Below, piece by piece: positions 8,606 through 60,020 of a stretch of 64,000 nucleotides of DNA (the stretch's first letter is position 1; each line of letters starts with the position of its first letter). Position numbers and translations under genes: made by a program. Where the stretch lies: the NCBI GenBank assembly GCA_963969395.1, contig OZ017803.1:8928001-8992000 (forward strand), in the 5' to 3' direction. The DNA comes from Pseudoscleropodium purum (lineage: Eukaryota > Streptophyta > Bryopsida > Hypnales > Brachytheciaceae). The notes under the pieces are model-generated. The model made no database searches. It saw nothing but the letters and a program-made list of their open reading frames with translations, and had not been told where the DNA came from.

Positions 8606-10217
8606 CTACTCAAAGACTTCATTCAAGTTCCGGTTCCGTTCCCCCTCCACAGGGTTAGGAACCGGGGTGCCTGGGTTGGATCCGGGTGAAGACTCCAAGT
8701 CGATTACCCTACCCGGTTTCGTGCCCGGAGTCTTAGTCCGTGCAGACTTCTTGGACTCGGGAGTCCAATCCTTCCCACCCTTCGGAACGGACGCATCCGG
8801 AAAGGAATCCGGTAGCGAGAGGTCCGAGAGGTGTATCCCCTTGGAGCACGTTGCTCCAGTCAGCTTCCGGCTGCTTTCCTCAATCCGGTCCGCAGCCTTC
8901 CGCCCCTTTATCATCACCGTCTCCACCTGCTCAGCAAAGTCGGTGAGAATCCGGACCATCCGAGAACCGGATAGTTTCTTCTCCTCGTGCATCTTCTCGT
9001 CGAAGAGCTTCGCTTTGGTGGTGGCCGTTCCGGTCGCTCCCAGGGTGGCCTTGATTTGCTCGGCTATCTTCCGAGTCTCCTCCGCCATCTCCCGGGTGGC
9101 CGTCACGTCTTCTTGATAGGCAAAGAGGGTTGCCTTCAGGGTGTCCACTTCCTCCTGCAGCCGGCGGATCTCCGCTTCCTATTTTCGGGTCTTTTCCGGA
9201 TTCGTGATGCAATTCGCCACCCGTTCCGCCAACTGACTGTTCGGTGGCGCATCTACCAACTTCCCGATCGCCGAAAGCGTTCTGTGCTTGACCTCCCAAT
9301 CCGCCCTGATGTTGCAGAGGAGGTTGATGAGGCCGTTGAACGAATCTTGCACTTCCGTGTCTTCCCCGGAAACGGTCTTCTCGACTTCCGGTCTTTCTTC
9401 CGGGGCCGGTTTGTTGTGACCGGGAGGTGTTCCGCGCTTGTGGGGAGGCGTCATCTTCTGTCGCTTGGTGGGCGGCATCGACAGCTCCTCCTCTTCCTCG
9501 CTTGACTCCCGGTCTGACCCGGAATCGGACTCGACCTCGTCATCCGTTTTCGACTCCCCATACTTCAGGAGGACTTCTTGAGTCCTCCACACCTTCTCCT
9601 CCGCGTCGGTGAGGAGTTGGTGTTCCCGATAGAGGTGGAAGAGATAAGGGCACACTGGACTGGCCCTCTTCTTCCCAACTCTACTAATGAGTTAGGCCAC
9701 GAGATCGGAAATGATCCGTGCCCAGTCCACTTTCCGATTACCACTTAGGGCACCGAAAATGGTGTTGCCAAGGGTGATCGTCACCCTTGTAGGCTTTTCC
9801 GGGTGAAGGACCGGAACCAAGAACTACAGAAACCGACGGTGTCGATCATCCACGCAATCCTCGACCGCGTACCCGTCCTTCGGATTGACGACCCCCTGGA
9901 ATTTGCCCCGGACGAACTCATCCTTCCGGTTTGCCATTCCTAACCCTCCTGCCCGGAAACCATAAACACCTCTCCACATTTCCTCATTCCAGCGGCTAGG
10001 GGATCCTCTCATGGTGTTATCAAACTGGTTGGACAATTTGCCGAGGAGTTCCTTGACCATTCTCTCCTCCCTAAAACCCTAGGCAACCCATAGAGGTGAG
10101 ATCCTCCATGAGTTGAGATTTCTCCGGCTCTGTGGAGGGAATAACCGGAATGACTTTCCGGAGCTTCACCTCGCCTCCAGAGGGACTCGCTGGTCTCACC
10201 CTACGTAGCGGCGGCAT
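8606..10217 (-). pseudogene. Decayed copy of the element's coiled-coil gene
   Basis: This is the homologue of the intact gene in copy 2, starting at an ATG at 10217. The frame is split into pieces at roughly 10060-9824, 9655-9179, 9299-8931 and 9148-8606, so it carries several stops and frame changes. Recognisable shared parts include the N-terminal KLSNQFDNT region, the CPYLFHLYRE motif, an acidic serine-rich tract, a KRQKMTPP basic patch and the C-terminal coiled coil. Codon composition is GC-rich, unlike the flanks. Function is unknown. Confidence 0.75.
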
Positions 10218-10383
10218 TCCCACTCCAATCTATCTCACTCTCTCCTAGCCGCACATCCCGTTCCTCACGTTCTCTCTCCGATCTCAACCGGAATCAAAGC
10301 CTGCAGCACACAAACGTAAAAACTCTACAACGCGCGCTCAAGGTCGAGTTTGTAAAAAGGGGTGCAATTGCGAAGGCTCCTCC

Positions 10384-10390
10384 TTATATA
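10384..10390 (-). promoter_or_regulatory. TATA box of element copy 1
   Basis: On the minus strand TATATAAGGAGGAG lies about 170 bp upstream of the pseudogene ATG. The same box is at the matching place in copy 2, so it is a conserved part of the element. Confidence 0.5.
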
Positions 10391-10649
10391 GTCTCTGGAC
10401 CCTTTCCGGTTTGGTCGTCTTGAATCCGGTTCACCCATAATCCGGTCCTAGACCTAATCCGTGTTGCATTCCGTTTCCGTCGATAGTTACTCCTAATCGG
10501 ATTAGATCTAAGAGGCCCACTACTTCATGTTCTGTGCTAGTTTTGAGTTTTCCTTCTTCACCTAATCGGATCCGGTTCCCTAATGGCTAGTTTCCGTTCC
10601 TATTTTGGTGCATGCTAAGAAAATCAAAATTTTAAGCTGCGACAAACTA

Positions 10650-13600: not shown

Positions 13601-14804
13601 ATCGCAATTTAGAATAGATAAAAGTATACAGAAAGCCATAAATAGAGTGTAGAACCAAAATAGGATTGTAACATACCCATTATAGTATTTGGTCTAGATT
13701 TGATTGTACACGTAGAACTCCCCCAAAACTAGCCTGAGAATAGTGAGAGAATCACAAGATAGCTGGTTTTGTAGGTTTGAGTCATACAACCCCTTAAGGA
13801 ATGAATTCCCCTATGAATGTGGCAATTCATGGCTAAGTCGGTTCGAGGGATCCACAACAAGGCCAATAGGTTAGGACCGTTAGGTCCTAGAGTTAGGTTT
13901 CGGATTCCCCATTAGACTAATGAGTTCTCCAAAATCCCCAATTGTTAGTATGTAGGTGCCACAACTAAAGAATGGAGTTGTGGAGGAATGTACTATCCAA
14001 GGATGGTATTGTAGAGTAAATCCCATGTTAGGAGTCCAACAACAAAATCAGCTTCCTAAGATTCCTTCATTTGTAAGAGATTCCCGCACCATTGACAACG
14101 TGAGGAGATGCCATTTTGGATCTCCATTGACCAAGTATACTAGGGACAAAGTGGACTTGCATGCCTCTCATGAGACTCCCTAAGAGGTCTCATGGAAATT
14201 CCCAACATCTTTTGACTTATAGAAGGCTCTCTTCTGGACAATTAACCATTCTAACCTCCAATAGAAATTTCATAGAAATTATCCAGGTTGCAGTAAAATC
14301 TCACTAAAAATTAAAATAGTTTTCTTTATGCTAATAATGTGCTCCTCCAAATTTTGCAACATTTTGATAGCGGCAAGATTCCAATAGAGGCCAGATTCAT
14401 CGGAAATCAAAGTTGTCCTGGACGTTCATTTTTTGGAAAATCACGTCCAAAAAACGGATGTCCGGATGTCCCGGTTCCCTAGACATTGTGGATGCTATCT
14501 AGTCGCCATCCATTGGTCACACAGATGGGTGGATGGGCGGAGGGTCATGTACTTTTGTTTACTAGATTTATTGGTTTAACAATTAACATTCATAAATTTA
14601 TGTATGAAGAGATGTATGTGAGTTGACCGATAGTGTCTAGATTTCTAGCATTCATGTATGGCATTTGATAAGGAAAAAGCAAGAAATTCTAAAATAAATG
14701 GATATGAAATTTGAGGTGTCTATCGAGGTTCTTTATTAAATTGGTACTTACTATTTCTAAAAGTTATAGTTGGTTGTTTACCTATAGAAAAGAAGAAGAA
14801 ATCA
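10650..14804. other. Intergenic DNA between the two 3.3-kb elements
   Basis: No gene is supported. The separate target duplications on each side show that this is not the internal region of one retrotransposon flanked by two LTRs. About 12.86-13.55 kb is rich in degenerate GATGTC/GACATC words, like the tract at 6.65-7.37 kb. The rest is AT-rich DNA with only short open frames. Confidence 0.55.
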
Positions 14805-15991
14805 AAGTGTGTCGCAGCACAGGGCAGGTCAATTCCCCATTATACTCACAAAAATCGCTCTAGAGTATAACTAAGTGACTCTAAAGATCGAACCCACGAG
14901 ATCCTGTGAAGTATCTAGCTCTATTAAGTAGTTAAGCTCAGTCAGTATGCCAATCTTACTTTCCGGTCCTAGATCTAGAACCAGAAATACCAACACAACG
15001 GATAACTACAGACCGGATTACTCCTTCTTCCGGTCCTACTAACTATCCGGTCCGTACAAATACCCAAATCCCAGGATCTCACAACTTCCGATCCTGGAAA
15101 TCCGTCCTGACCAATCCGGTCCGGATGGTCATCCTATACCCGTAATCCTATCCGGTTTAGTTTTGCCTCTGTTTCACCATCAGAGGGGTCGCCGCTTAGT
15201 TTTGAGAGTGGTAGGCCCACCACTTCTTCCGTGACTTATAGTGGCTGAAGACCCACTGTCCTACCTTCTAAACTCCTAAGCTAATCCGGATCCGGTTTGG
15301 TCCTTCACAACAACCCAAATAGCAATCCGGATTGTAGGTCACACAAAGACCCCACACTCGACCCTCTCGTACTACAACGACCTTGATGCTACTTCCGATC
15401 TGTGCGAAGACAGGTGGTTACAAGTGCACCCGTCCGTTCCAACATCAACTAAAGTTCTTCCGTTACCCATACGGGTGGTGAGACCTCACAGGAGATCGGA
15501 CACTCAACCGGATTTCCCACCCGGGAGTTCTAGCGCAGCTAAGGAATCCCTCCCTACCCGCCTAGCCTAACAACGGCTTTCTCACCCGGAATCTCGAACT
15601 CTAGACGTGCTGAGGAACTAAATTCACTCCCAACTCTTCGATACCTACTCACATGCACCTAGGATCGGAAAATAACCACCAAGGGGAGAAATCACTCACA
15701 AACCGACTCGTACTATCCTAACTCCACATCATACAATCCTGTCGCGCTGGAGAGAGACACACAATGAAGAGAATAGAAAAGTACAAGAAGTTTGCAAAAT
15801 GAACAACTCCCAGTTCCCATCTCAGGAACCGATTTATATACAAAGGGTAAAAACCCTAAAAGCACAAAAAGGAGCGGAAAACCCGTGGGGGTCCGCCGCC
15901 ACCTTAATCTAACTTCCGGTCTAACCTAATACTATTGAGCCGGATCCGGATCCGGATCCGCTCCTACTCCTAACTGAAATTAAAATCCTAT

Positions 15992-17650
15992 CTACCCTAC
16001 AACTCTAGATCCTATCGTCGGGCTTCCGGTCTCCGGGACTAGCTCCTCAAAAACCTCACTCAAATTCCGGACCCGTTCCCCCTCCTCAGGATTCGGTCCG
16101 GGTGGAGATTCCAGGTCGATGGTAATATCCGGTCTCGTGCCCGAAGTCCCAGTCCGTGCAGACTTCTTGGACTCAGGAGTCCAATCCTTCCTATCCTTCG
16201 CCATAGTTGCATCCGGAAAGAGGTCCGGTAGAGAGATATCTGAAAGGTGAATACCTTTGTCGCACGTCGCTCCGGTCAGCTTCCGGCTGCTCTCCTCGAT
16301 CCGGTCCGCAGCCTTCCGCCCCTCCACCATTGCCGTCTCCACCTGCTCGGCGAAGTCCGCGAGAATCCGGACCATCCGGGAACCGGATAGTTTCTTCTCT
16401 TCGTGGATCTTCTCGTCGAAGAGCTTCGCCTTGGCCGCTGCCGTTCCGGTCTCTCCCAGGACCGCCTTGATCTGCTCGGCCACCTTCCGAGTCTCCTCCG
16501 CCATCTCCCGAGCGGCCGTCACGTCTTCCTGATAGGCAAAAAGTGTTGCCTTCAGTTTATCTACCTCCTCCTGCAACCGGCGGATCTCGGCTTCCTGCTT
16601 CCGGGTCTCTTCCGGATTGGTGATGCACTCCGCCACTTGTTCCGCCAATTTGCTGTCCGGTGCCGCACCCACCAACTTGCTGATTGCCGCAAGCGTCCTG
16701 TGCTTGACCTCCCAATCCGCCCTGATGTTGCAGAGGACGTTGATCAGACCGTTGAACGGATCTTGCATATCCGGATCTCCCCCGGAATTGGTTTTCTCGG
16801 CTTCCGGTTTCTCTTCCGGGGCCGGTTTGTCTTGACCAGGAGGCGTCCCGCGCTTGTATGGAGGCGTCAGCTTCTGTCGCTTGATCGGCGGCATCGGCTC
16901 CTCCTCTTCCTCGCTGGACTCCCGGTCTGACCCGGAATCGGATTCCGCCTCTTCATCCATCTCCGACTCCCCATACTTCAAGAGCACTTCCTGCGTCTTC
17001 CACGCCCTCTCCTCCGTATCGGTGAGGACTTGGTTCTCTCGATAGAGGTGGAAGAGGTAAGGGCACACTGGAGTGGCCCTTTTCTTCCCAACCCTACTAA
17101 CAAGCTGGGCCACGAGATCGGAAATGATCCGTGCCCAATCCACTTTCCGGGTACCACTGAGGGCACCGAAAATGGTGTTGCCGAGGGTGATCGTTACCCT
17201 GGTCGGCTTTTCCGGGTGAAGAACCGGAACCAGGAATTGCAGGAGCCGACGGTGTCGGTCATCCAAACAATCCTCGACCGCGTATCCATCCTTCGGGTTG
17301 ACGGCTCCCTTGAACTTCCCTCGGACAAACTCATCCTTCCGGCTCGCCATTCCCAAACCTCCTGCCCGGAAACCGTAAACCGCTCTCCACATCTCCTCGT
17401 TCCAGCTGACGGGAGCTCCCCTCACGGTGTTGTCAAACTGGTTGGACAACTTTCCGAGGAGCTCCTTGACCATTCTCTCCTCCCTAAAACCCCAAGGTTT
17501 CTCGGCAAACCCTACGCAACCCATGGATTTGAGATCCTCCATGAGTTCAGCCTTTTCCGGCTCTGTGGAGGGAATAACCGGAATGACTTTCCGGAGCTTC
17601 ACCTCGCCTCCAGAGGGACTCGCTTGTCTCGACCTACGTAGCTGAGGCAT
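15992..17650 (-). CDS. Element-encoded coiled-coil protein of unknown function
   Basis: An uninterrupted 552-codon frame starts at the first ATG (17650) and ends in TAG. The N-terminal third is globular and contains KLSNQFDNT, a tryptophan-rich patch (SWNEEMWRAVYGFRAGG) and RVTITLGNTIFGALSG, followed by CPYLFHLYRENQ around residues 195-207. I recall the N-terminal stretch as similar to proteins annotated as putative plant transposon proteins, but cannot check this. A serine/acidic tract (SDSGSDRESSEEEEE) and a basic KRQK patch follow, possibly a nuclear signal. The C-terminal half is a long predicted coiled coil. It could be a Gag-like or DNA-binding factor. No catalytic motif is visible. Confidence 0.8.
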   Translation of the reverse strand: MPQLRRSRQASPSGGEVKLRKVIPVIPSTEPEKAELMEDLKSMGCVGFAEKPWGFREERMVKELLGKLSNQFDNTVRGAPVSWNEEMWRAVYGFRAGGLGMASRKDEFVRGKFKGAVNPKDGYAVEDCLDDRHRRLLQFLVPVLHPEKPTRVTITLGNTIFGALSGTRKVDWARIISDLVAQLVSRVGKKRATPVCPYLFHLYRENQVLTDTEERAWKTQEVLLKYGESEMDEEAESDSGSDRESSEEEEEPMPPIKRQKLTPPYKRGTPPGQDKPAPEEKPEAEKTNSGGDPDMQDPFNGLINVLCNIRADWEVKHRTLAAISKLVGAAPDSKLAEQVAECITNPEETRKQEAEIRRLQEEVDKLKATLFAYQEDVTAAREMAEETRKVAEQIKAVLGETGTAAAKAKLFDEKIHEEKKLSGSRMVRILADFAEQVETAMVEGRKAADRIEESSRKLTGATCDKGIHLSDISLPDLFPDATMAKDRKDWTPESKKSARTGTSGTRPDITIDLESPPGPNPEEGERVRNLSEVFEELVPETGSPTIGSRVVG

Positions 17651-17837
17651 TCCCACTCACATCTACCTCACTCTCTTCTAGCCGCATGTCCCGTTCCTCA
17701 CTTCCTCTCTCCGATCTCAACCGGAATACAAACGTCCAGACAAAACACAAACGTACAGACGCACAAACGACAAAAACTCAACCGCGCGCTCTCAAGGTCG
17801 AGTTTCTAAAAGGGGGTGCAACAGTGAAAACTCCTCC

Positions 17838-17844
17838 TTATATA
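17838..17844 (-). promoter_or_regulatory. TATA box of element copy 2
   Basis: TATATAAGGAGGAG on the minus strand lies about 190 bp upstream of the ATG at 17650 and about 275 bp inside the element end. This is where an LTR U3 promoter would sit. It is conserved in copy 1. Confidence 0.55.
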
Positions 17845-18424
17845 GTCCCAGGACCCTTTCCGGTTTCTCATCATGAATCCGGTTTACCATCATAATCCGG
17901 TTCATCATCATAATCCGGCCCTAGACCTAATCCGTGTTACATTCCGTTTCCGTCGTTAGTTACTCCTGACCGGATTAGATCCAAGAAGCCCACTACTTCA
18001 CGTTCCGTGCTAATTCTGAGTTTTCCTTCCCCACCTAATCGGATCCGGTTAGCTAATGACTAGTTTCCGTTCCTATTTGGGTGTATACTAAGAAAATCAA
18101 AATTCTAAGCTGCGACAAAGTGCATAAAGGGAAAAATATCTGCATTGTGGCTCATTTCATTGTAATTTAGAATTTAGCCACATCTTGGTATAAAACCTTC
18201 TCAGGGTGGCTACATTTTCTCGGTTTTGCTTGATCTTTTGGTCCAATAGTTGTTGAAATTTCAATTATTGATACTTGTACCCAAACCTTGGCTAGTTTAT
18301 CCTTGGAAAAAAATTATGTAAAAATTTTATGAATCTAGTTTTGTTTTGCTCATTCAATTTTTTTAAGACTTACTTTATTTTTCACTAAAAATTGTAGTTA
18401 GAAAAAAAACTAACAAAGAAGAAG

Positions 18425-20836: not shown

Positions 20837-20840
20837 TGGT

Positions 20841-20957
20841 TGTCGTATTACTCCGTATCGCTAACAGTAAGTGTCGTAAACTACATGTACTATTACATAC
20901 ACACATGCCCACATGCAAATCCACACTACAACAAGGCATGAATGAACAACCATTCAA
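20841..20957. repeat. 117-bp direct repeat, outer copy
   Basis: It is nearly identical to 21335-21451, with four differences, all transitions. The pair brackets the 375-bp LTR segment. The similar divergence of this pair and of the two LTR segments suggests the duplication dates from about the time of insertion. Confidence 0.85.
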
Positions 20958-21332
20958 TAATAAGCTTCCCTAACACTCCAAGATAGCTTCCACTTTGTCT
21001 CAATTGGATTAGTCTTGCAAAACGAGATGAATCAAGGAATAACACTAGTAAAGATTGGTAGAACAACCAATCATCATTACATTCATGCTCCAATTCCTAT
21101 CAACTCATAAACTATACACACATGCAAGACTTGAAGAGAGTGAAGGAGCAAAGGGGCGGCCTAAGGTTACAACCACCCCAAAGGAGCCCCCAAATAGCTC
21201 CGTTCACACCTCCTTCAGTCTCAAAACTCTAGTATAGGCCTCCAGTGACCAATACATGGCCATTTGGACAATCTTAAGCCTACGACATGCTCTACAGAGC
21301 CTACCAACCACCCGCCATTGATTAACATGACA
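20841..21332 (-). repeat. 3' LTR region (492 bp)
   Basis: It consists of the 375-bp segment shared with the other end of the element (20958-21332) plus a 117-bp segment (20841-20957). Its ends TGTCGT and ATGACA form a short inversion. The 5' LTR appears much longer and lacks the 117-bp segment. The two ends are therefore not simple copies of each other, and this end is probably rearranged. Confidence 0.65.
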
Positions 21333-21334
21333 GT

Positions 21335-21451
21335 TGTCGTATCACTCCGTATCGCTAACAGTAAGTGTCGTAAACTACATGTATTACTACATACACACAT
21401 GCCTACATGCAAATCCACACTACAACAAGGCATGAATGAACAACCATTCAA
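21335..21451. repeat. 117-bp direct repeat, inner copy
   Basis: The second copy lies just inside the 375-bp LTR segment and is separated from it by the dinucleotide GT. Next to it, at 21454-21462, the minus strand reads AGGGGGGCA, a possible polypurine tract. If so, the true LTR start may lie here and not at 21332. Confidence 0.8.
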
Positions 21452-21800
21452 TTGCCCCCCTAGCTGAGTAAAGCGCCCTCGCAACTCAGCTAGCAACAGA
21501 AGTCCAATGAAATAAACTTCCCTACACTCATTATGTAATCAATATGTTGAAGAAGATAGACGAAAGGCCCCCATCCATTGCTGAGCTTGAATCAATCATA
21601 AGTGAAGGGGTAAGCTGGGTACAATTGAACCCCATCCTCAATCGCTTCCAATATTGTAGTTGGACTCCACGAAATCTCCATCCAAGTTTCAATATCAAGA
21701 ACCACCGCTCATACTCTAACATTAAATGTTACAAAATGAGTACATCTTCCGTTAATGAGAAAAGTAATCAGCAACCACTTGAAAAAGTAGTACTAGCTAA

Positions 21801-23957
21801 TCACTTTCTACAACAAGGACAAGTCCAACGTCTAACAGGAAGAGCAATCAATGGCGGTCGAAGACATGCCATGTGCCAACCTCGTTGACATGAATCACAC
21901 AATAACATGGTTGCAGCACCCTTGCTCTCACCACATACAAAACATTTAAATCCAAGTGGAACCACTGCCAACTCTGGATCCATAGTCCCTTCAATTGGCA
22001 AATGACAAGGAGCGCAGTTTTTTGTGTTGTCTCTACACTCTTGTCCATCCCTCCCCTCCAAAAGAAGAACTCCACTAGGCAAAATTGCCTTGACCCTCAA
22101 AATGGTCCGTCCGACCCGTACATCCAAGGTTGTTGGTGCCTCACATTGTAAATACACGTAATCTCCAACCTTGAACCGTCGAAGTTGAGGCCTATAAGTC
22201 CCACTTCTAATGTGCGCATATCTGAGAGTATTTCTGTGTTGCGCTATTGCCAAATTTTCCATAGCCATTGGCATGGCCCTTTGAAAATACTCAGCTCGAT
22301 CATGTAGTACTTGTGTCCAAATTCTTGGGTCATCTAAGTCTACAACTGGATCTAATTTTTCCCTCAAAGTCAACGGTAACATTGGCTCTCTGCCATACAA
22401 TAGCTGATAAGGGCTATAAGATGCAAGAGATGCCTGTCGACTGAAACGATAACCCATTGCTATCCATGGCAACTTCAAATCCCAATCTCGGTGATTGCCT
22501 GCCAACAACCCGTACTTGCGCAAACTGCGCTTCACCGTCTGAACCACCCTCTTTGCTAATCCATTAGCCTCTGGGTGGTTTCTTGATGTTGTACGGTGAT
22601 CAATTAGAGCTTTAGTGCAAAGCTTTTCAAATGCCCCAAGAAACTCTCTTCCTTGGTCAGTTAACACCTCAGCTGGAGCTCCAAATCTAGCCAACACACG
22701 GTCAAGGAAGGCCGCTGCTGCTAACTCCGTGGAATTTTGTGGTAGTGCCACCAACTCAATCCACTTGTTGAAATGCTCTACCATCACAAGTACATACTTA
22801 GTACCTCGTGATGTAGTCATCAATGGCCCGGCAAAATCAAGACTCCACCTATAGCCCAAACCTATGATTGGCAAAGGCTGTAATTGGGGAGTTAGAGTGT
22901 TGAAGCTTGATCTAACTCGATCGCAAACTTCACACCTCCCTACATAGGTTGCTACTTCTTGTCGCATGCCCATCCACCAATACAAACCACGTAACATGGA
23001 ATACGTACGAAGCACTCCAAAATGACCCAATTCTTCATGAACCTGACGTATCAGTTGAAGACGTTGGTTAGGCCTAGGAACAACCCTCCTTGTTCCATCC
23101 GGCCATCGATGAAATATAAGGCCACCCTCCCAATGAAACCTAGCCAAACGATGGACTATCCGGTCCCTTTCTTGAGATATAGTATTAGGCAAAAACTCCC
23201 CATGTTGAAGACGATGTAGAACCCCTTGGTCTTTCCACACATCAGTGGTAACTTGAGGTCTTCTTTCATCCAAGTCCTCATCAACAACATTCAATCGAGT
23301 CTTTTCTAAATCTTGGCTGGATTTTCCCTCCATCCAAGCCAAATAAGATGAAGCATGCCACCCTGGCATTGCCTCTTGATCACATGAGCCATGCCACCGA
23401 GCACCAGTCAAATCTTCCTCCAAGGGACTTGGATTGCGGCTCAAGCCATCAGCATCCAAGTTTTGCAACCCTGCTTTGTGGATTACTTCAAAATCATACT
23501 CTTGCAACAATAAGGCCCACCTAGCAAGCTTCCCTGTGAGTTTATCAGACTCCATCAACCATTTTAGAGGTTGATGATCAATCACAAGTGTAAAGCTTTG
23601 GCCATAGAGGTATGGACGGAAATGTGCAACTGCCCACACCACAACTAGGCACTCCCCCTCATAAGATGAATATTTGGCCTCCGCATCATTGTTGCTTCGT
23701 GAAGCATACGCAATAACATATTCTTTGCCATCATCATCCTTCTGCGTCAATACAGCTCCAATCCCCAACATACTCCAATCTGTATGGAGTTGAAAAGGTC
23801 GTCGAGCATCAAGCCGCCTCAACACTGGTGTTGAACCAAGTGCTCCTTTCAAAGCCTCAAATGCCTTTTCTTGATCAGGTCCCCACATCCACTCTTGATC
23901 AACCCGAGTCAATCGAGTCAAAGGTTTTGCCAAGAGACTGAACCCACGAACAAATCG
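21801..23957 (-). pseudogene. pol: RNase H, integrase and C-terminal PHD finger
   Basis: From 23933 the frame is open to the TGA at 21801 (about 710 codons). RNase H comes first, with acidic residues in HTDWSMLGIGA, EGECLVVVWA and IDHQPLKWL. The integrase has an HHCC zinc module (H299, H304, C334, C337) and core aspartates in SLDFAGP (D366) and VLTDQGREF (D426). The expected third acid, in HPEANGLAKRVV, is lysine (codon 22551-22553). This would abolish strand transfer. After a region ending NCAPCHLP comes a C4HC3 PHD finger (about 21810-21944: CFVCG, LLCDSC, GWHMAC, WTCPCC), a possible chromatin reader that steers integration. Confidence 0.88.
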
Positions 23958-24929
23958 TCAATAATAGTTTGCTAGTCCCATAAAGGCTCTCAACCTTGAT
24001 ACATCTCTAGGAATTGGGATCCTCTTCAAGGCTTCCACCGTCGCCTCTTGTACTCCCAAGCCTCCTGGTGTAATCATATGTCCCAAGTAAGGCAACTGAT
24101 CATGGAAGAATTTACACTTCCCATGATGTAAGCGAAGACCCCAAGCTTGCAGCCTCTCAAAAACTTGCTGCAAGTGTTGTACATGCTCCTCCGGTGTATC
24201 ACTAAAGATAATCACATCATCTATGTAACACCGAGCAAATGGCAACCCCTTCAAGACTTGATCCATAACACGTTGGAACTCTGCTGGGGCATTCTTCAAG
24301 CCAAAAGGTAAGAACTTCCAATAGAAAAGCATATCTCTTCCATCCTCATCTACTCCCCAAAATGCCGTCTTCACCCTATCTTCAAGTCTCAATGGCAATT
24401 GATGGTATCCAGACCTCAAGTCCAAAGTGCTAAAGACTTTTGCCTTTCCAACTACATCAAATGACTCAAGTGTTGGCATGGGATAGCGATCGGATTTTGT
24501 TTTCTTGTTAACAGGACGGTAATCTCCACACATTCTCTTCTCCGTCCAATTTTCAAGAACATCTTTTTTTGCTGGTATCACTGTAGCACATGCATACTCT
24601 CCATCTGAAAGTTTTATCAATCCGGCGTCCAAAAGTTCTTTGCACCTCAATTTCACCCTGTCTCTTTCTGAAAGGTTAAGCCTATATGGGCGTTTAAACA
24701 CTGGATGATCATCTTCCAGTTGAATTCTCACAGGCTTGCCTTTATAACCCTCCAAGTCAGTGAGTTTAAAAGTAAAGCAAGCCCTGTACGAGCGTATGAA
24801 TGCTCGAACCTTCCGTGCCTCTGCACCAGTGAGTCCCATGCCTATGTCCATCTCCCAATCTTTGTAAATTGGCAAGATTACTTCCTCCTTCAGGGACCCT
24901 TTTAATGGTGCTGACACCACCTTTGGTTG
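23958..24929 (-). pseudogene. pol: reverse transcriptase
   Basis: The segment holds a full Ty3/gypsy-type reverse transcriptase. It has PVFKRPYRLNLSE near the N-terminus, MCGDYRPVN, DLRSGYHQL, LPFGLKNAPAEFQRVM and the catalytic YIDDVIIFS, followed by the thumb motif YLGHMITPGG. It ends within the conserved LANYY segment at a TGA (23958-23960) directly before CGA. Related elements have a second arginine there, so CGA to TGA is the simplest origin. The frame continues unchanged into RNase H. Confidence 0.92.
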
Positions 24930-25379
24930 TTAGTTGGAAGAGCTTACACCATTGCCCTTTTGCAGGACAATAGATGCATCATCACTCTCAATCATTCCAA
25001 CCGAATCACCTCCATTAATGCCAACATTAGCACCAACTACAAAGTGAGGTGATGTGACAAGAAATGGATTTTCTTTTGTAAGAAAAACCCTCTTGAACTT
25101 CTCTTTGGCATCTTCCATTCCCAAATCTTGAGCCAATGCTGCCAATACACGTTGTCCTTGCAATTCATCTTCTACAAGCCACTCCACAACATCTTGGTCT
25201 CTCTTCTTTTCAAGTATTTGACTGCAAGCCTGCTCACTATCATGCCATGCCTTGGCATTTAGAGTAGCCATCTTCTCCACTACTAGAGGCACAACACCCT
25301 TTGCCCCCTGGCCTGAAACATTTGCCCCCAGATGGCTTTCAAGGCCAAGTTTCTTTTGCCGTTGAGCTGCTAGGCATAT
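24930..25379 (-). pseudogene. pol: linker between methyltransferase and reverse transcriptase
   Basis: About 150 residues in frame between motif X of the methyltransferase and the reverse transcriptase, ending at TAA (24930-24932). It is rich in charged residues and predicted helical in the middle (VEWLVEDELQGQRVLAALA). I recognise no domain. It may be a spacer that positions the methyltransferase or holds a processing site. Confidence 0.5.
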
Positions 25380-26453
25380 CCCAAGAAACCAAACTATGGA
25401 TGTCAAGTCCATGGCTTGTCCAAGACAATGACGCCGTTGAGACTCTGTCAATCCAAGCCCAGAAGTGGTGCCGGTATGGAAACCCATAGCACGTTCCCGC
25501 TCAATAGCACTCGGCTCCTCCAATCTCATAGAAGTGTTGTCAAATACCAAGCCCGGTCCGCCATTGCAAAAAGCAAAAGACCGAGGATAACTCATCAAAG
25601 TAGGAAATGCCAATCGAGGCATTCCTACACGGTTGATTATAGCTAACGGCGGTTGATCGTCTTGCACCACTATTTGGGCCGATCGCCCCTCCTCCAAGAT
25701 GTCATCAAGATGTTTGCCCTCGGGACGACTAATGCGATATATTGCCGTAGAAATCCCTCACATATGAGCCAAATTGGTCCACTTCCACCAGAAACGATGG
25801 GCGTAAGAACCAAGGGTTGCAGCATTCATTGCCACTGGCTGACCAAGGTGCTGACATACCAATCGTGCATCCTCATGAACTTGAGCTCTAACATCTCCCA
25901 ATGGAGGTACATTCTCAAGAACATAAGCCACACTTGTAGCTTGTCTACATTGCCACCAATGCAACAGCCGTAAGAGCTCCCAAAATAAACTTGATCGTGG
26001 GTCTTGGAGTCCTTGGCGAGAACCAGCCCGGGAATGCCCTTGGCAAGGCCATCCAGCCATCACAAGGTCCACTTGGCCCAACCTCAAAAGATCTTCTTCT
26101 CCAATCAAGGCAATGTCTGAAGGAACTCGAGACATACAACCTTGAATAGCCCTTGCAGATAGTTGCTTTGGATATTTCATTCTTAACTGGTCCAAATGAT
26201 GTTTTGCAGCTCTGCTCACCACTATGTTGTTGTCCACATAAGTATAACTTTGTATAGACAATCCTGCCTCCAAAACTGCAGCCAAACCAGTACCAAGTCC
26301 AGCAAATAGTTCCACAAGAACTATGCCTTTAGGATCATCAGAAAGATCTACCAGTTGTTGTAGAGGTGGTAGTGTGTGTTGTGGTTGCCATAGCTGCTGG
26401 TTTACTTTCTCCACTAATTCATGGCATTTCTCAGCCAAAGCTTTTGGTGAAAT
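25380..26453 (-). pseudogene. pol: C5-cytosine DNA methyltransferase domain
   Basis: Motif I is VELFAGLGTG (about 26315-26286). Motif IV is AGWPCQGHSRAG with the catalytic cysteine in PCQ (26048-26040). Motif VI is YVLENVPP (ENV at 25916-25908). A motif VIII-like SYAHRFWWKWTNL follows. After a TGA at 25758-25760 the same frame continues with ERERAMGF and CLGQAMDLTSIVWFL (motifs IX and X, about 25526-25380). These are all motifs needed for 5-methylcytosine formation. The motif VIII region and the short target-recognition part resemble DNMT3-type enzymes more than bacterial ones, but this is by eye. It lies in frame between protease and reverse transcriptase and was presumably made as part of the polyprotein. 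One stop breaks it. Confidence 0.9.
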
Positions 26454-27401
26454 TCATGGTGGTATGGGATCCTTGGGATGTCTTACAAATGAGTTGATTT
26501 TGCCTTGTGTTGGTGTATCTAACTCTAGAGGCGAGTCTATAGTAGATATGTTGCCCTCCAGTAGAAAATCTCCAGTTGCCAACCACTCTACAACACACCC
26601 ATACACTGCCACCAATCCCTCAACTACGCCAGCAAAAGCTCTAAAGATGACGGGAATCACCTCCTTCCGTCCATCTCCTTGTGACCACCCTGGTCGAAAC
26701 CATGCCTCCTCAGTCCAAGAATCATGACCAAAACCAATGGGGTACAAAACTTGCTGCCCCAAAAGAATGTCATAGCTCGTAGCACTTGTTACAACACACC
26801 TCACAGAGATGTGAGTGTACGCATCAGTACCCACCTTGAACCGAAGTCGTAGGGGCTCTTTTGTCATCCCCGTAGGCTGCTCTGTGCCCCCTAGTGATGT
26901 TGCTATGGTGAAAGGACATGGCTCCAAGTCACTAGCAAGAAGTCCCAAACTCTGAGCTAGCAACTTGCCTAGCATGACTGGTTGGGCTCCCGTATCAAGC
27001 AATACTTTTTGTGGAAACACTTGAGGTGCTTCACCTCGAGCCACAGAAAAGACATGGCTAGAATTGGCCAAACGCATCACTCCAGGCTTGACTTGCAAGC
27101 GTTCACGAGTTGCACGAACTGGTACCGTTGCCAAATAGCTTGTGGCAACTTCAACAGCTTTTCCACTTGAATTCAAGTGGCTATCAAACTCTGCTTGCGA
27201 AGGAGGTTCTTTTAGCCACCCCTTCCAACATCGCAAGGCATTCGCTGCTTCTTTAGCAATATCCTTCCTTGTGCACACATCACCCTTAGCCAAAGAAGAC
27301 TCTTCCATCTCCCTCATGGCCACATTGGCAGGCATCTGGACTGTTCCTTGCATTATTTTCCCTGCCATATGATATACGGTAGCTGCATCAAAGTTGTCGC
27401 T
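26454..27401 (-). pseudogene. pol: aspartic protease
   Basis: The segment carries VLLDTGAQPVML with the catalytic aspartate at about 26994-26996, and the later flap-to-dimer motif YDILLGQQVLYPIGF. This is the order of retroviral-type aspartic proteases that process Gag-Pol. The N-terminal about 110 residues link it to the nucleocapsid. It ends at TGA (26454-26456), after which the methyltransferase follows in frame. Confidence 0.88.
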
Positions 27402-29231
27402 CTACAACTGAACCCCTGAAAACAATGGAACTTCCAAGAGTTTAACAACCAAACTCTTCACCATCATGTCTTTTTCTACGGGGAAATTTCTTCCATCAAG
27501 GCTAGCTCCAAGTGATGGACTAGTCACCACATCTGCCAAGCCAAATGTCATTGGCAATCTTGATTGCCCAATACTATTAGGAGGCCCTTGGTAACGCACA
27601 TAAGGCCCACCTGGAGTAGTTGAGTTTCCTTCCACCATGGGTGCAACTGACAAAGAATTGGCTTGTGATCTCGTAGCCACCGCTGCAACCACCTCACCAA
27701 GTGCTCCATATTCAAACCTATCTGGTCCAGGCTTTGAATTAGAAGTAACTGGTGTGATCTTTGTTGTCGTTGCAACGAGCAATGCTAGGGTATTTTGCAA
27801 CTCTCCCATGCGTGCCTCAAGATTGTTGCCCCCAGAATTTGATCCACCCCCTTGAGCACCTTGTGGGGTGAAAGATTGAGGCCTCAACTGCGGGTTCTTC
27901 ACCCAACATTTGTCCTCCGTATGACCAACCCGACTACAAGGTGCATAAGTGCACTTTGGAGGTGTTCCTCCACCTTGTATTTTCTTTTGTGGGCTTCTAT
28001 TTGTTGTGGTTGCATTGCCCTTGTTGGTAACTGATTGCCCACCATTCTTACCCTCAGATGATGTATCTGTAGGACAATCTCTCTTTCCGTGGCCTAGCAA
28101 TCTACAATTCCAACATTGCATACGAGAATTGGTTGTCACTTCCACTTCAGCTGCCATAGTAATTTGCTTGGAGGCCTTGGGGTTCCCTTGGCTCTTGCTA
28201 GAACTACCAACAACAATCTTAGTCTGGCTGGGTATTGAAGTCATAATAGATGACAATCTTCCAACCTCCTCTACACATAGCCCTCAATCCAATTGCTCCA
28301 CAATAGCAAAAGCTTGAGCTAAAGTAGCTCGACCTCCATATGCCAACAACATGTGAGGGTGTGCCATATCACGAATCTTCTTGTCTTGCTTCCCCATATA
28401 AAGCTCCACCAACTGGCGTTCTGTAAATGCATCTCCGCTTTCACGAGCAAACTTGGAGAGTCTTGCATACATAATGCGGGGAGTGTCTCCAGTCTCATTC
28501 TTGAAATCCTGGATGTGGCGCATGAGATCGCGGCGAATGCCTCCAAACTCCATCTCCAAATGCTCAAAAAACAATCGGAGTGGATCAAACTGAGGAGGAG
28601 GGCCCATCGTGGCTATTGCCTCATTTGAAGCTCGAGCCAACCGAGAGATGAATGTAGTTGCAGTCCCACTAGCGCCACTCGTAGTAGCTTTAGAAAGCAA
28701 CCGCGCAGCTCGTGCTGCATCAGGGCCTGAGGTAGCTTCCTCGCCCTTCTCTTCATCTCCATCACTAGTCTTTGAAGCTTGAGTTGTTGGAAATGCAGCT
28801 CCCTCTTTCAACGCCGTGACTAACTCCACCCTTCGAGCCCAATAGTCTTCCACCTCCTCAAGCTCAACCCTATGATCCTCAAACCAAGAATCATAGGCTT
28901 GCAACACCTCAAACTCAAGATGGGTGGGTAGCTGCTTAAAAGCCCACCATTCATTGAAAAGAGCATTGCGTTGTCTTTGTATGTGTTGCTAGGATCGAAA
29001 CCTGGTCTTCCAATCATTGAAGGCCACGCCCTCAGCTCTTCCGGAGTAGCGGACACGAACCATGGATCCACCATTATGGTCTTTCATGTCGTCAAAAACG
29101 CTAATTCTCCAACTCTTAAGGGGATCAACTCTCACAGAGGGTAGAACTGACTCCTCTCTGTCCTCCTCAACGTGAACTGCGACCTCCTGGTCTTCCTCTG
29201 CAATGTAGTCACGCGTCCGTATTTGAACCAT
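27402..29231 (-). pseudogene. gag: capsid and nucleocapsid with two zinc knuckles
   Basis: It starts at an ATG (29231) 11 bp downstream of the putative primer-binding site. A capsid-like helical domain (about 28907-28287) includes FFEHLEMEFGGIRRDL and YARLSKFARESGDAF. The nucleocapsid has a CX2CX4HX4C knuckle (CWNCRLLGHGKRDC, about 28115-28074) and a second, CX4CX4HX4C (CTYAPCSRVGHTEDKC, about 27953-27906). In-frame stops occur at 28989 (TAG), 28284 (TGA) and 27402 (TAG). No frameshift is needed, so Gag and Pol share one frame. Confidence 0.85.
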
Positions 29232-29241
29232 AAACGACCTT

Positions 29242-29264
29242 CGAATGTCGAATCTTCTATACCA
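29242..29264 (-). other. Putative primer-binding site
   Basis: Directly after the putative LTR end (GACA plus one G), the minus strand reads TGGTATAGAAG. This resembles the plant initiator-Met tRNA site TGGTATCAGAGC with one base missing. Its position just before the gag ATG supports the call. Confidence 0.5.
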
Positions 29265-29265
29265 C

Positions 29266-31192
29266 TGTCAAACTACTCCCCGTTGGCCTATCCTGTTGAG
29301 GCTCTAGATTGGTTCAAGTATCCAAGTAGGGATAAGAAAACCACGAGATATGGGACGGGTGGAACCGACGGCATTCCACGAGATACCGTTGTTGAAAATG
29401 GATCCTAAACTTCAAAATCACGGTCTGTTGGTTATAACTCCAGCCTTACCATGAGAACAAGCAAGTCTCGACCATGTGGGTCACAATTCCCACTTCGTCA
29501 CCACAACAAAAAATGGAGCTAAGCAATGGTGTAACCCACGCTGTCCGCAACAACAATGATGCACAAAGCATAAAAGAAAGCCTCCAAAATAGGCTAGGGC
29601 ATCACAATTACAAACAATAAATTTGTAACCCACTAATAGCCCTCCAAACCCCTCTAAATGGCCTCCTTCTACACCTCCAAACTAAAATCAGCCCCTAGTA
29701 TAATAGGGAATTACCACTATTTTTTTTTTTTTTTTTAATAATAATTTGTGGTAATTTTCAAAAACTACTCAAAAGTTATCCAAGAAATTACCTTGGTAAC
29801 TTTCAAAATTACCCCAGTACAGGGTTGACGAATTTCAACGTCCGCCCCAAAATAGCGTCCGTTTTCCGGACGTCCGGATGCACAGACGCTAGCGGACGCA
29901 GCGTCCCGACCGTCGTCAGAAAGCGGACAGGCGGGGCGGGGCGGACGAATGGGGCGGACGGCCCGAGGCGGACGCCCAGATCGTGCGGACCAGATCAGTC
30001 CGCGCGTCAATCGGACGGCCGTAATCAGGCGGACGGACGGGGCGGACGAGGCGGACAGGGCGAACGGGCGAACAGGCGGATGCTGCGTCCGCCGGGACGC
30101 GAATGTCAGCAAACGCTGCGGACACAGCGTCCGCGTCCTAACGTCCTGTCAACCCTGCCCCAGTAACTATCCTAGTAACTTCCAAAAGTTACCCCGATAA
30201 TTGATCCAGTAATATTCAAAATTACTCTAGTAAATGGTCCGGTAACTATCAAAAGTCAACCGGTCTTCGTCTCTCTCGTTCTTCGAAGCTATCAAAGCTT
30301 GAACAACATCAACAAACCTCACAAAACACCTCTCAAAACAAGGCTTCAACTCCAAAACTTCAAACTGCCATAACTTCTTCAAAAATTGATGGATTTCGAC
30401 AATTTTACAGTTTTGGAATACTACAACAACTTCTAGTGTTTATAACACTAAAAAGTCACCCTAATGGCCCTCAAACCCCAAATCAGCACTTTTGCATGTT
30501 TGGTCCAGCACACATGAGGGTTTTCACCACTCTATTCAAACTCACACAACTTTTGCAAAAAGTGTCGGAATTGCTTGAAACTTGTTTCTATGGAATTCTT
30601 ACATCAAAGAGTTTCTTCTTAGATCTTCTTGTCACCCTTGGAAGCTCTCCAACACCCTCCACTTCAACATTAGCACCTCCAACACCAAAGCTCCAAGATT
30701 TGATTTTGCTAGTGCTTCCGCACGTTACCACCAATGCCAGCAACCCTAATACAGCAATTCAAACCTCTCTAACAACTCTAGTGCTCTCACATCAGCACCT
30801 CCTTCACTCTCTTCAAGTAATAAGCTTCCCTAACACTCCAAGATAATTTCTACTTTATCTCAATTGGATTAGTCTTGCAAAACGAGATGAATCAAGGAAT
30901 AACACTAGTAAAGATTGGTAGAACAACCAATCATCATTACATCCATGCTCCAATTCCTATCAACTCATAAAGTACACACATATGCAAGACTTGAAGAGAG
31001 TGAAGGAGCAAAGGGGCGGCCTAGGGTTACAACCACCCCAAAGGAGCCCCCAAATAGCTCCGTTCACACCTCCTTCAGTCTCAAAACTCTAGTATAGGCC
31101 CCCAGTGACCAATACATGGCCATTTGGACAATCTTAAACCTACGACATGCTCTACAGAGCCTACCAACCACCCGCCATTGATTAACATGACA
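29266..31192 (-). repeat. Putative 5' LTR with hAT MITE inside
   Basis: On the plus strand it starts TGTCAAACTACTCC and ends AACATGACA. Its outer 375 bp (30818-31192) match the other terminus at about 97%. Without the inserted hAT MITE and its duplication it would be about 1.58 kb. The inner border rests on the primer-binding site and on similarity of the last 14 or so bases to the outer end of the 3' LTR region. Only the outer 375 bp are proven to be repeated. Confidence 0.5.
29820..30157. mobile_element. CpG-rich hAT-type MITE, copy 1
   Basis: A 338-bp element with terminal inverted repeats CAGGGTTGAC / GTCAACCCTG. An exact 8-bp duplication CCCCAGTA lies at 29812-29819 and 30158-30165. CAGGG ends and 8-bp duplications define hAT elements. 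The interior is very GC-rich and built of GGACG/CGTCC words. It has no transposase. It inserted into the retrotransposon LTR and is therefore younger than it. Confidence 0.93.
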
Positions 31193-32759
31193 TGGTTATT
31201 GTGTTGCCAACCCACCAAAAAGCATTTACAATTCTATGTTGAGATACCAATTGAAGCCCAATTTGTAAAGAAATGAGCATGTAAAGTAGCAAGTACAAAC
31301 AATGTAGGTTCTTAACGCACTTAAGCTAGTTTAGCATACCATCATCGAATCAGCTTTATATGAGAATTAGGTTAATTATATAGAAACTAGCACTAATACC
31401 TCAAAGTGCCCTCTTGACATGTAATGGCTACAAGAAGAATCCAAATTAATTTAAAGGTTTAGGGATCATGAATGTAAGCCTCATCAAAAACTAAATATAG
31501 ACTAAACTAAATGCTCAATAAGATAGTTCACCAATATATAGTTTATGTTTAATGGGGTTTATATTCAGTTGTGCTTAATAAAGTCAAGGCTAACTATAGC
31601 AAAGGCTTCATGAAAATACATCTCTACTTAACTAAAATTTGAACTAAATAAAAAATACAGTACATGCAATAGACTAATGACCCTCTTTCAATTCTCACAC
31701 TACAATTCGTCCACAAAATAGATCATAAGAGTTTTATGAATCTACAATAAGAAGACAATATAGTGTGAATGTGGAATTCAATACCTACCCTTCATCCATA
31801 ATTAAGACACATCTTCTATAAATTCATAAAGAACCAAATACTTAAAATTTACTTTTTCATTAATACATTCCATTTTTCCAAACACATTTGTATTTAGAAT
31901 ACACCCAATGACATTTTACATATTCTATATTAAAATAAATGAAATTATTATTTTAGGCTCAAATGTTTTTTGGAGCTATCTACATGTGTTTATTGGGTAG
32001 ATGCATGGTTGAGTGGCTCTTTTTTGGCTAAAGTTTAAGCCCAAATAGTCCTTTTTTGTGAGTAAAATGTTTAAGAGTGAAATGCTTGGGAGTGAATTAA
32101 AAAAAAATTTAATCAAAAAATACCTAGCTTTTTGGATGCCCTTGGACTCAAGAAATTATTATAGTTTAGTGAAATAATTTTTGGGAAAAAAATATTGGCC
32201 AAAAGAAAAGGAATTCATAAAATTTAGTATTTCAAAAGTCATTAAAAAGTCCTTAGTAAACACATAAAGAAGATCTACATTAAAGGGCATTGTTTCCTAG
32301 AAACATTAGTTCAAATTCTATTATAAATGTAGTACCTACAATTCATTTGGTTAAGAGAAAAAAGTTCTAAAAGTTCTTTTTAATCCATTTGATAATAAGT
32401 TTGTCACACCCACTTTTTTCTAAAAGTCCCTAGCACTCACATACTACATACAAAAAAATTAAAAAATCATAGAACTATTGGACATCAAGTTAATTTATCT
32501 GAATCAAATTGTCTCAAAGAAAAAAAAATGTAAGTGACCTATAGATCAATTTTACGGTTTAGTACTTTAGTTTTTTGGCACTTCTCAACAATGTCACAAG
32601 AAATTGAGCCACTTAACCATTCATTTGCCTTATTCCTATTTTTCAACTTCTATCACTTACTACATCTCCCTCAACAATTATGCATTGCTCAAATAGAAAG
32701 AGAAAGAAATATGCCCACAATATAGCCATAAAACACACAAATCCAATCATATTCAAAAT
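31193..32759. other. AT-rich intergenic DNA
   Basis: No gene, repeat family or RNA gene is recognised. It separates the retrotransposon from the 3' end of the ParB-like gene relic. Confidence 0.5.
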
Positions 32760-41680: not shown

Positions 41681-41993
41681 GTGCTTCGGAACTAAAGAGA
41701 TTGAGTTCTAAAATTCTAAAAGCATGTGGAGACAACAATATGTATAAGCTCTCCTATAAATGAAACTATTGCTTCCTTTCCACGACTAGATTGAAATGAC
41801 TCTTTCACTGAGAAGGGTCCGATATTTAGTTCTTTCGAAATAATATTCAACATGATGAATCAATGCCATCCCCTAATAAATGTGTAATAGATGCCTACCC
41901 TGTAATTGACAACTATATTGCCAAACATTATGTTCAAAGCATCATGAATCCCCTAGAATTTGGTAGGTGGTAGTAAACGGTAACTCTGACAGT

Positions 41994-42273
41994 CAGGGTT
42001 GACGAATCTCTACGTCCGCCCGAAAAAAGCGTCCGTAATCCAGACGTTCGAACGTCCGGACGCACGGACGCTAGCGGATGCAGCGTCCCTCCCGTCGTCG
42101 GAAGGCGGACTGGCGGGGCAGACGGATGGGGCGGATGCCCAGATCGTGTGGACCACATTAGTCCGCGTGTCGATCGGACAACCGTAACCGGGCGGACAGG
42201 GTGGACAGGCGAACGCGAATGTCAGCGGACGCTACGGACACAATGTCCACGTCCGGACGTCGTGTCAACCCTG
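41994..42273. mobile_element. CpG-rich hAT-type MITE, copy 2
   Basis: A 280-bp element with the same CAGGGTTGAC / GTCAACCCTG ends as copy 1. An exact 8-bp duplication CTGACAGT lies at 41986-41993 and 42274-42281. The interior is again GGACG/CGTCC-rich and about 60 bp shorter than copy 1. It has no coding capacity. Confidence 0.93.
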
Positions 42274-52643: not shown

Positions 52644-52889
52644 GAATTCTGAACTGCTGTTGATCAAGCGCTGCTGACTTGATCAAGAAACTCTGAAAAC
52701 AGAAACAACATACAATAAACAAGATACAATAAACAGCATACAATAAAGTGATTGCTTACGAAGCAAGGACGGAAATGAAAGAAAAAATACGGAGCAAAAC
52801 AAGGTAAAAAAACAGGCATGAGGAGGACCAGCACGACCACAACGAATACTCAAATTCGAAGCAAAACCGAAGTACCTGAGAAAGAAACC

Positions 52890-53250
52890 AGGAGCGTCGA
52901 CGAGGAGCGCAACCAAGAGCAGCGACGAGGACCGCGACGACGAGCGCGACGAGGAGCAGCAACGAAGACCGCAACGAGGAGCGCGACGAGGAGCGCGACG
53001 AGAAGCAGCGATGCGAGGAGCGAGACGAGGAGCAGCGATGCGAGATGAGGAGCGGCGATGCGAGACGAGGAGCGGCGATGCGAGACGAGGAGCGGCGACG
53101 AGGAGCGAGAGGAGGAGCAGCGACGAGGTGCGAGAGGAGGAGCGGCGACGAGGAGCGAGAGGAGGAGTGGCGACGAGGTGCGAGAGGAGGAGTGGCGACG
53201 AGGTGCGAGAGGAGGAGTGGCGACGAGGAGCGAGAGGAGGAGCGAGAAAA
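52890..53250. repeat. GC-rich GAGGAGCGRCGA minisatellite
   Basis: Tandem units of about 20 bp (GAGGAGCGGCGATGCGAGAC and variants) run for about 360 bp. They give long low-complexity open frames on both strands (Arg/Glu-rich on plus, Ser/Leu/Arg-rich on minus), which I do not call as genes. Confidence 0.9.
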
Positions 53251-59914: not shown

Positions 59915-60020
59915 TTCTTTACTTCACTGAATGCACTCCTCCTGAAATTGTAAAATTCTTTCAAGTCACTTTTCCTTGTTCCGTTCTTCGTCTTACTCTG
60001 GTGATATATCTTCGACTGGC

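Follow-up and report, generated by a model that had tools for sequence, protein, structure and literature searches.

This locus raises the question of whether a cytosine DNA methyltransferase (MTase) lying among the genes of a moss retrotransposon is a lasting part of the element or an accident of one copy, and, if the former, where it came from, how it is expressed and what it might do. The window, meaning the whole 64,000 nt stretch analysed, is C47:8928001–8992000 of Pseudoscleropodium purum; the genome searched comprises 313 Mb in 52 contigs. The explanation that best covers the whole, and that is probably correct, is that the window holds a decayed copy of an old MTase-bearing gypsy lineage that would use a leaky stop, integrate from a circle, methylate its own DNA and be steered by a PHD finger.

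The element and its methyltransferase

The Ty3/gypsy element occupies positions 20841–31192 on the minus strand, the strand of all the features below, with ACCA as a 4 bp target duplication. One frame holds Gag with CCHC-like knuckles, protease, MTase, reverse transcriptase (RT), RNase H, an integrase with H2C2 and rve domains, and a PHD finger. The left (5') end is a repeat, A1 (30812–31192), starting with TGTCATG and flanked by ACCA at 31193–31196. A first part of Gag is assigned to 28287–29267 (open pieces 28992–29267 and 28287–28988, with stops TAG 28989–28991 and TGA 28284–28286) from its position and from homologous Gag-CCHC proteins; a Pfam scan of it gave no match. The C-terminal part of Gag (27405–28283, then TAG 27402–27404) has CCHC-like knuckles CWNCRLLGHGKRDC and CTYAPCSRVGHTEDKC and no Pfam match at E ≤ 0.01. 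The aspartic protease core LLDTGAQPVMLGK (26751–27011; PF13650, Asp_protease_2, E 1.7e-5) lies within an open piece at 26457–27401, and the MTase follows at 25380–26453. After an in-frame stop in a leaky-stop-like context (TAA CAA CCA, 24924–24932) come the RT (24072–24545; RVT_1, PF00078, E 1.1e-32; open piece 23961–24929, then TGA 23958–23960), RNase H (23496–23810; PF17917, E 2.8e-37), the integrase (22572–23072; H2C2 at 22908–23072, PF17921, E 6.3e-17; rve DDE core at 22572–22853, PF00665, E 1.3e-13) and, ending the integrase ORF, the PHD finger (21810–21944; PF00628, E 1.8e-8). A polypurine-tract-like sequence, CTAGGGGGGCA (21453–21463), resembling the tract at the same place in subfamilies A and C (defined below), directly precedes repeat B1 (21333–21452). 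Repeat A2 (20953–21332) is next, across a B1|A2 junction reading CGACA-AC-TGTCATG, and the right (3') end is repeat B2 (20841–20958), ending in CGACA beside ACCA at 20837–20840. The two A repeats are 96.9% identical and the two B repeats 96.7%. A1 and A2 have diverged by 3.8% (K2P), mostly through transitions, with 3.1–4.4% in five other copies. The window copy is dead, its in-frame stops including TAG 28989, TGA 28284, TAG 27402, TGA 26454, TGA 25758 and TGA 23958.

The protease-RT-RNase H-integrase order with a DDE integrase is that of Ty3/gypsy, as are TG...CA ends with a target duplication of 4–6 bp (here exactly 4 bp in 12 of 15 insertions). The LTR-int-LTR plan, in which the same long direct repeat forms each terminus, was not found, A-coding-B-A-B, permuted and short forms being present instead, so the element is filed as a Ty3/gypsy variant on its coding content. 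At E ≤ 0.01 there was no Pfam match to a tyrosine recombinase in the eight open pieces scanned, where the integrase is of the rve kind instead, nor to a chromodomain in the open pieces scanned.

An earlier note, made by reading the window, had claimed a set of MTase motifs in one frame between protease and RT. ELFAGLGTG (I), GWPCQG (IV), LENV (VI), AHRFWWKWTN (VIII), and ERERAMGF and CLGQAMD (IX/X) do all lie in one minus-strand frame, the PF00145 (DNA_methylase) profile matches 25761–26453 (E 1.5e-12; 48.1 bits, cut-off 22), and the Pfam matches to protease and RT on either side bear out the position. In this copy, however, the frame is broken by TGA 26454–26456 just before the domain (Trp in copy L006) and by TGA 25758–25760, which falls after motif VIII and before motif IX; neither stop is present in L006. 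The piece C-terminal of 25758 had no match of its own in a Pfam scan.

A profile from the MTases of seven relatives matched DNMT3A/B/C in the PDB at E values down to 2.4e-19, against 7.9e-8 for the best tRNA C38 methyltransferase row; DRM (permuted) and HhaI rank below DNMT3. The fold match to DNMT3B/3A spans 276 residues, the motif order (I-IV-VI-VIII-IX-X) is unpermuted, and DNMT3 is the best match among C5-MTases. The motif IV Cys and Gln and the motif VI Glu-Asn are invariant in seven diverse MTases; in P0031 and the Closterium rows, ECQG stands in place of PCQG in motif IV. Because its N-terminal neighbours are Gag and protease, where a DNMT3 would have ADD and PWWP, this is a DNMT3-type catalytic domain and not a DNMT3 gene. 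Positions 25380–26453 are thus confirmed to encode a DNMT3-type cytosine methyltransferase, its activity being predicted from sequence, and the capture of a DNMT3-like MTase by a gypsy element is supported by the domains, by the DNMT3A/B/C matches and by its presence throughout the family.

Several other features of the window may be mentioned. A 3.3 kb direct repeat pair (7352–10646 and 14788–18119, 86% identical), with a 554 aa ORF (15992–17656, minus strand) lacking a Pfam match, is likely another repeat family. GC-rich units resembling GCGTCCG/CGGACG occur at 29815–30160, in the element leader, at 41990–42119 and in the flanks of locus L045, apparently as a dispersed short repeat or insert. 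Overlapping tandem self-matches at 52884–53244 form a local minisatellite-like array, and ORFs of 590 and 336 aa follow one another at 59976–62848, the first matching DUF7869 (E 1.7e-16) and possibly a transposon-related gene.

Copies in the P. purum genome

A PF00145 search of the genome gave 72 places, some host genes among them. With L006 as family query (587 residues, from the protease end to the end of the MTase ORF), at least 79 matched stretches were found at E ≤ 1e-6, 74 of 197 candidates being scored. Among the matches listed, identities to L006 were grouped roughly by us into classes that overlap at their edges: A (89–100%, including the window copy), B (59–71%), C (about 41–53%) and older (36–45%). 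A search for further copies had been named in the earlier note as a check against chance insertion. Among the matches listed, all 42 long RT matches (identity ≥ 71% over ≥ 280 residues, a twin of the window copy counted) have the MTase within 1.2 kb upstream, so it is no chance insert in the window copy. The other RT matches fall short of this length or of 71% identity, and for several of them no MTase is among the matches listed. The RTs next in the ranking are 35–38% identical, and two loci at that level (L030 and L031) are plain gypsy elements with neither MTase nor PHD finger.

Within subfamilies, dN/dS is 0.89 (A) and 0.58 (C) for the MTase and 0.96 (A) and 0.42 (C) for the RT. These weak values could be explained by decay after insertion, and do not show selection on the MTase. 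For the MTase of KnitGypsy-Dnmt3, an earlier gypsy element with a DNMT3 from Klebsormidium nitens, the part of de Mendoza et al. (2018; PMC5890265) available here reports purifying selection, with Ka/Ks < 0.2.

The twin copy (C47:9084851–9098105; loci L017 and L018) lies about 138 kb away and has match scores equal to those of window 20839–31192; its 3' piece is 99.96% identical to the window element. Together these suggest a recent segmental duplication and not two insertions.

A conserved stop between the MTase and RT ORFs

The earlier note had placed the MTase within a gag-pol frame. It does share a frame with the RT, but it closes the Gag-protease ORF ahead of a conserved stop. An in-frame stop separates the MTase ORF from the RT ORF in all ten copies read (five A, five C), so the window stop at 24930–24932 is not decay, and the two are separate ORFs in one frame. 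Its context is TAG CAA CCA in four of five A copies, TAG CAA TCA in all five C copies and TAA CAA CCA in the window; UAG-CAA-YCA is found in nine of the ten, in two subfamilies about 45% identical in the MTase-closing ORF. CARYYA, the wider form of the leaky-stop context, followed any stop triplet in 70 of 23309 control cases over the DNA examined. In TMV and BNYVV, CAA UYA follows a leaky UAG, with readthrough of 32% and 11% in a plant assay (PMC2754532, in the part available). Going by this context, readthrough of the stop is likely; Gag-protease-MTase would be the main product and Pol a minor one, so that the MTase would be made at the level of Gag.

Not every member of the lineage has the stop: C-termini of the form SAT[KQE] or [SP]S[ST]N, as in C and A copies, are found in 13 of 20 external proteins (P0001–P0020), the other seven end differently, and P0165 has protease, MTase and RT in one frame with no stop. 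No earlier description of a leaky-stop context after a Gag-protease-MTase ORF was found in the literature searched.

Repeats, termini and integrated forms

Integrated copies take three forms. The commonest (i) is A-coding-B-A-B; a permuted form (ii), A-B-A-coding-B, is known from a single copy (C45:10.9); and (iii), A-coding-B with nothing after it, was read in four subfamily A copies. In subfamily C (40 of 140 candidates scored), 26 of 31 full A-B matches are 3' of the element with a B directly before them, and five are solo. In subfamily A (≥ 95% identity; 40 of 122 candidates scored; twin counted), six of eight full A-B matches belong to form (i), one to form (ii), and one is solo. Two of these six form (i) copies have no A1 in place, the nearest being about 40 kb off for C40:27.8, with none among the matches listed for C48:17.4.

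The element starts with TGTC and ends with GACA. Exact 4 bp duplications flank 12 of the 15 insertions read, across all forms: four of five in form (i) (ACCA in the window, AAGT, CTAT, ATGC), the one form (ii) copy (TTCC), all four in form (iii) (AGGG, ATCT, ACAA, AATT), the rearranged copy C40:42.9 (ATGT) and two of four solos (AATT, CGGA). The three misses are two with one mismatch and a solo lacking the B end. The B|A junctions form palindromes (CGACA-nn-TGTC), with a 2 nt spacer in 15 of 15. A G-tract ending in CA (TA in C47:4.3 and C40:27.8) precedes B1 in both subfamilies. In two of 15 copies the A|B junction is longer, by 3 bases in one and 8 in the other. In a check confined to TGG primers, the first 60 bases beyond the A1 border contained no TGG (the tRNA-CCA complement) in any of the nine copies looked at.

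Given the one permuted copy and the several short ones, a circular intermediate seems probable, with integration following a cut at one of its internal B|A palindromes. Plus-strand synthesis would start from the G-tract before B1, and conventional reverse transcription would then yield B-A-coding-B-A, whose ends are not TG/CA. Joining these ends would give a circle with two B|A palindromes (CGACA-nn-TGTC), and the DDE integrase would cut it at one of them, producing a TG...CA-ended insert and a 4 bp target duplication. Form (i) would result from opening at one palindrome and form (ii) from opening at the other; form (iii) would come from a circle with one repeat. A circle opened at its B|A palindromes would explain all three forms as well as the duplications and the unusual A|B junctions. 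For retroviruses, integration from a circle by a DDE integrase was debated for a long time and then abandoned as an idea; should the circle model hold, this element would be a natural case of it. No earlier description of DIRS-like ends with TG..CA termini, 4 bp duplications and permuted or short forms was found in the literature searched.

The leading alternative needs no circle: A-coding-B-A-B would be made directly as linear cDNA by an unusual strand transfer, and the short and permuted forms would be later rearrangements. This is a real possibility, if not a probable one. Recombination of B1 with B2 can also yield A-coding-B, and that of A1 with A2 a solo A-B, and the permuted form is a single copy; but that copy has its own TTCC duplication and TG/CA ends and no simple derivation from the common form, and subfamily A has four short-form copies with exact duplications against one solo A-B match. 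The circle accordingly remains our preferred reading.

The PHD finger and possible roles of the MTase

The best solved relatives of the PHD finger in the PDB include those of the chromatin proteins KMT2D and PHF12. It is present in nine of ten copies, being missing from the rearranged C40:42.9, and absent from both MTase-less gypsy loci (L030, L031). It also occurs in P0154 of Marchantia (53% over 51 residues), P0045 and P0153; reading Closterium P0035 and P0040 by eye turned up none, their ORFs stopping after the integrase. That it targets integration to chromatin is, on this likeness, about an even guess. No earlier description of a PHD finger ending an integrase ORF was found in the literature searched.

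In the life cycle proposed, an old, repeatedly active streptophyte Ty3/gypsy lineage would once have captured a DNMT3-type MTase and then kept it. Translation would mostly yield Gag-protease-MTase, with readthrough of the leaky UAG adding RT, RNase H, integrase and PHD finger, and the MTase would be a particle protein at Gag level. In the particle or the nucleus it would methylate new cDNA ahead of its entry into the genome, and the PHD finger would steer the integrase to a histone state. Such an enzyme might also let the element evade or exploit host silencing, as the earlier note proposed. Self-methylation of cDNA, argued by analogy, is plausible but somewhat short of probable. It has been proposed for new DNA of Symbiodinium DIRS elements, and a trial of catalysis by the KnitGypsy DNMT in yeast was inconclusive (PMC5890265, in the part available). 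A fuller version, in which a gypsy element with its integration site inside its repeats would use a DDE integrase on circular cDNA at two palindromic B|A sites, and a DNMT3-type writer on Gag with a PHD reader on the integrase would bring pre-methylated circles to chosen chromatin, following one capture shared by Klebsormidium, Closterium, moss and liverwort elements, is tentative as a whole.

The observed/expected ratio of CpG is 0.44 for the MTase element (window 21801–29000) and 0.645 for the whole window, so that depletion is not specific to the element. In L030 and L031 it is 0.98, these being too few families for a conclusion.

The MTase might instead act on the host and not on element DNA, methylating host loci or RNA, or putting a brake on transposition and its harm; this seems unlikely. 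Gag binds RNA, and an RNA substrate is conceivable because the MTase is fused to it, but DNMT3A/B/C are the nearest solved enzymes, far ahead of the tRNA C38 methyltransferase (2.4e-19 against 7.9e-8). Host-directed options have been suggested for other DNMT retrotransposons in the available part of PMC5890265. It is improbable that the MTase is a passenger, structural or DNA/RNA-binding, with no catalytic role: such a passenger would fit the ECQG of the Closterium rows and P0031 and the dN/dS near 0.9 in subfamily A, but not the invariant motif IV Cys/Gln and motif VI Glu-Asn of seven diverse sequences, the fold match to DNMT3B/3A over 276 residues, or retention in all 42 long copies among the matches listed. 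A catalytic MTase acting on the element's own DNA is thus preferred.

Relatives in other species and origin of the MTase

Three protein searches gave 47, 200 (120 listed) and 12 relatives. Hosts among the matches listed are Marchantia polymorpha, M. paleacea, Riccia sorocarpa, Calypogeia fissa, three species of Sphagnum and Closterium NIES-53/54; the Klebsormidium nitens relatives are KFL_013780020 (P0156) and KFL_003910030 (P0166). P0156 consists of Gag-CCHC, a protease-like stretch and an MTase, stopping right after the latter. Its MTase is 34% identical to that of the P. purum family (E 5e-51), and alignment of its protease region to the family protease is insignificant (E 1.4).

When 40 element MTases were placed in a tree, rooted at its midpoint and with several long branches, Klebsormidium-type rows were split from all others; the A and C lineages of P. 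purum came out together as a clade, next to one of liverworts plus Sphagnum. In this midpoint-rooted tree Sphagnum groups with Marchantia and Calypogeia falls outside the pair (97/87); horizontal transfer of the element may be the cause. With an outgroup of four rows (host DNMT3 exons, a DNMT3A stretch and two host DRMs; two rows partial), 22 element MTases including P0156 form one clade (99/98). This tree unites the element MTases, but a root placing the Klebsormidium elements outside the others is not rejected (p-AU 0.466).

The earlier note had also suggested a separate capture in this lineage, which these comparisons do not support: P0156 has the same Gag-CCHC/protease/MTase order and falls in the one clade (99/98 against the four DNMT3/DRM rows), the protease alignment (E 1.4) being to the contrary. 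Since the MTases of K. nitens, Marchantia, Calypogeia, Sphagnum and Closterium elements are in one clade, a single capture is favoured, and from a comparison with few host DNMT3s the data are read as one capture common to KnitGypsy-Dnmt3 and the P. purum lineage. Independent captures by the Klebsormidium and P. purum lineages are very unlikely. The unrejected Klebsormidium-outside tree, the small and partly incomplete outgroup, which lacks the K. nitens host DNMT3, and the insignificant protease alignment leave them some room; but the MTase is at the same place in the same Gag-protease-MTase ORF, matches that of P0156 at E 5e-51, and groups with it against DNMT3 and DRM rows (99/98). A chance insertion or chimera in the window copy alone can safely be dismissed, given dozens of copies in the genome and relatives in other species.

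P0049, P0063, P0075 and P0154 (Marchantia and Sphagnum), labelled as DNA (cytosine-5-)-methyltransferase or PHD-type domain proteins, appear to be pieces of the element lineage. In both genera, therefore, a share of the genes carrying the DNA (cytosine-5-)-methyltransferase annotation may be fragments of the element.

Comparison with known systems

As a rule, transposons are on the receiving end of DNA methylation; the P. purum lineage carries a DNMT3-type enzyme of its own, probably at Gag level. The question left in 2018, why a retrotransposon would keep such an enzyme, becomes testable in Marchantia, a genetic model with many copies.

KnitGypsy-Dnmt3 is the nearest known system, with gypsy domains, a homologous DNMT3-type MTase in the polyprotein, located in the Gag-protease ORF (P0156), and a DIRS-like repeat arrangement (Fig. 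4 legend, PMC5890265, in the part available), to which the A-coding-B-A-B of P. purum corresponds. Compared with KnitGypsy by proteins P0156 and P0166 only, the P. purum element has features that may set it apart: the integrase PHD finger, the leaky-stop context, permuted and short forms with 4 bp duplications, and dozens of copies. SymbioDIRS-Dnmt3 and SymbioLINE-Dnmt of Symbiodinium, as far as that part of PMC5890265 describes them, also encode a DNMT, the DIRS form having split repeats, but use a tyrosine recombinase or LINE machinery, not that of a DDE-integrase gypsy; they are described there as separate acquisitions. The A-coding-B-A-B repeats are likewise those of DIRS, PAT and Ngaro elements, which are retrotransposons with a tyrosine recombinase (Fig. 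1e legend, same source).

The P. purum element differs from DIRS, PAT and Ngaro elements in its rve/H2C2 integrase, TG..CA ends and 4 bp target duplications. The circle proposed here can be likened to that of DIRS elements, with a different enzyme, and to IS circles, with abutted ends. A circle has been proposed for DIRS, PAT and Ngaro elements, and we know of no DIRS elements with an rve/H2C2 integrase, TG..CA ends and 4 bp target duplications.

Chromoviruses, gypsy elements with an integrase chromodomain, are similar, in the descriptions available, in having a histone-reader-like domain at the integrase C-terminus; here a PHD finger takes the chromodomain's place. An orchid Ty3/Gypsy element with an m6A RNA demethylase domain (PMC9289625, in the part available) is another case of a gypsy gaining a nucleic-acid-modifying enzyme, though an RNA demethylase and not a DNA methyltransferase. 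An MTase-bearing gypsy is thus already known as a kind, and what appears to be new in P. purum, going by the literature searched, is the leaky-stop context, the PHD finger and the combination of DIRS-like ends with TG..CA termini, 4 bp duplications and permuted or short forms.
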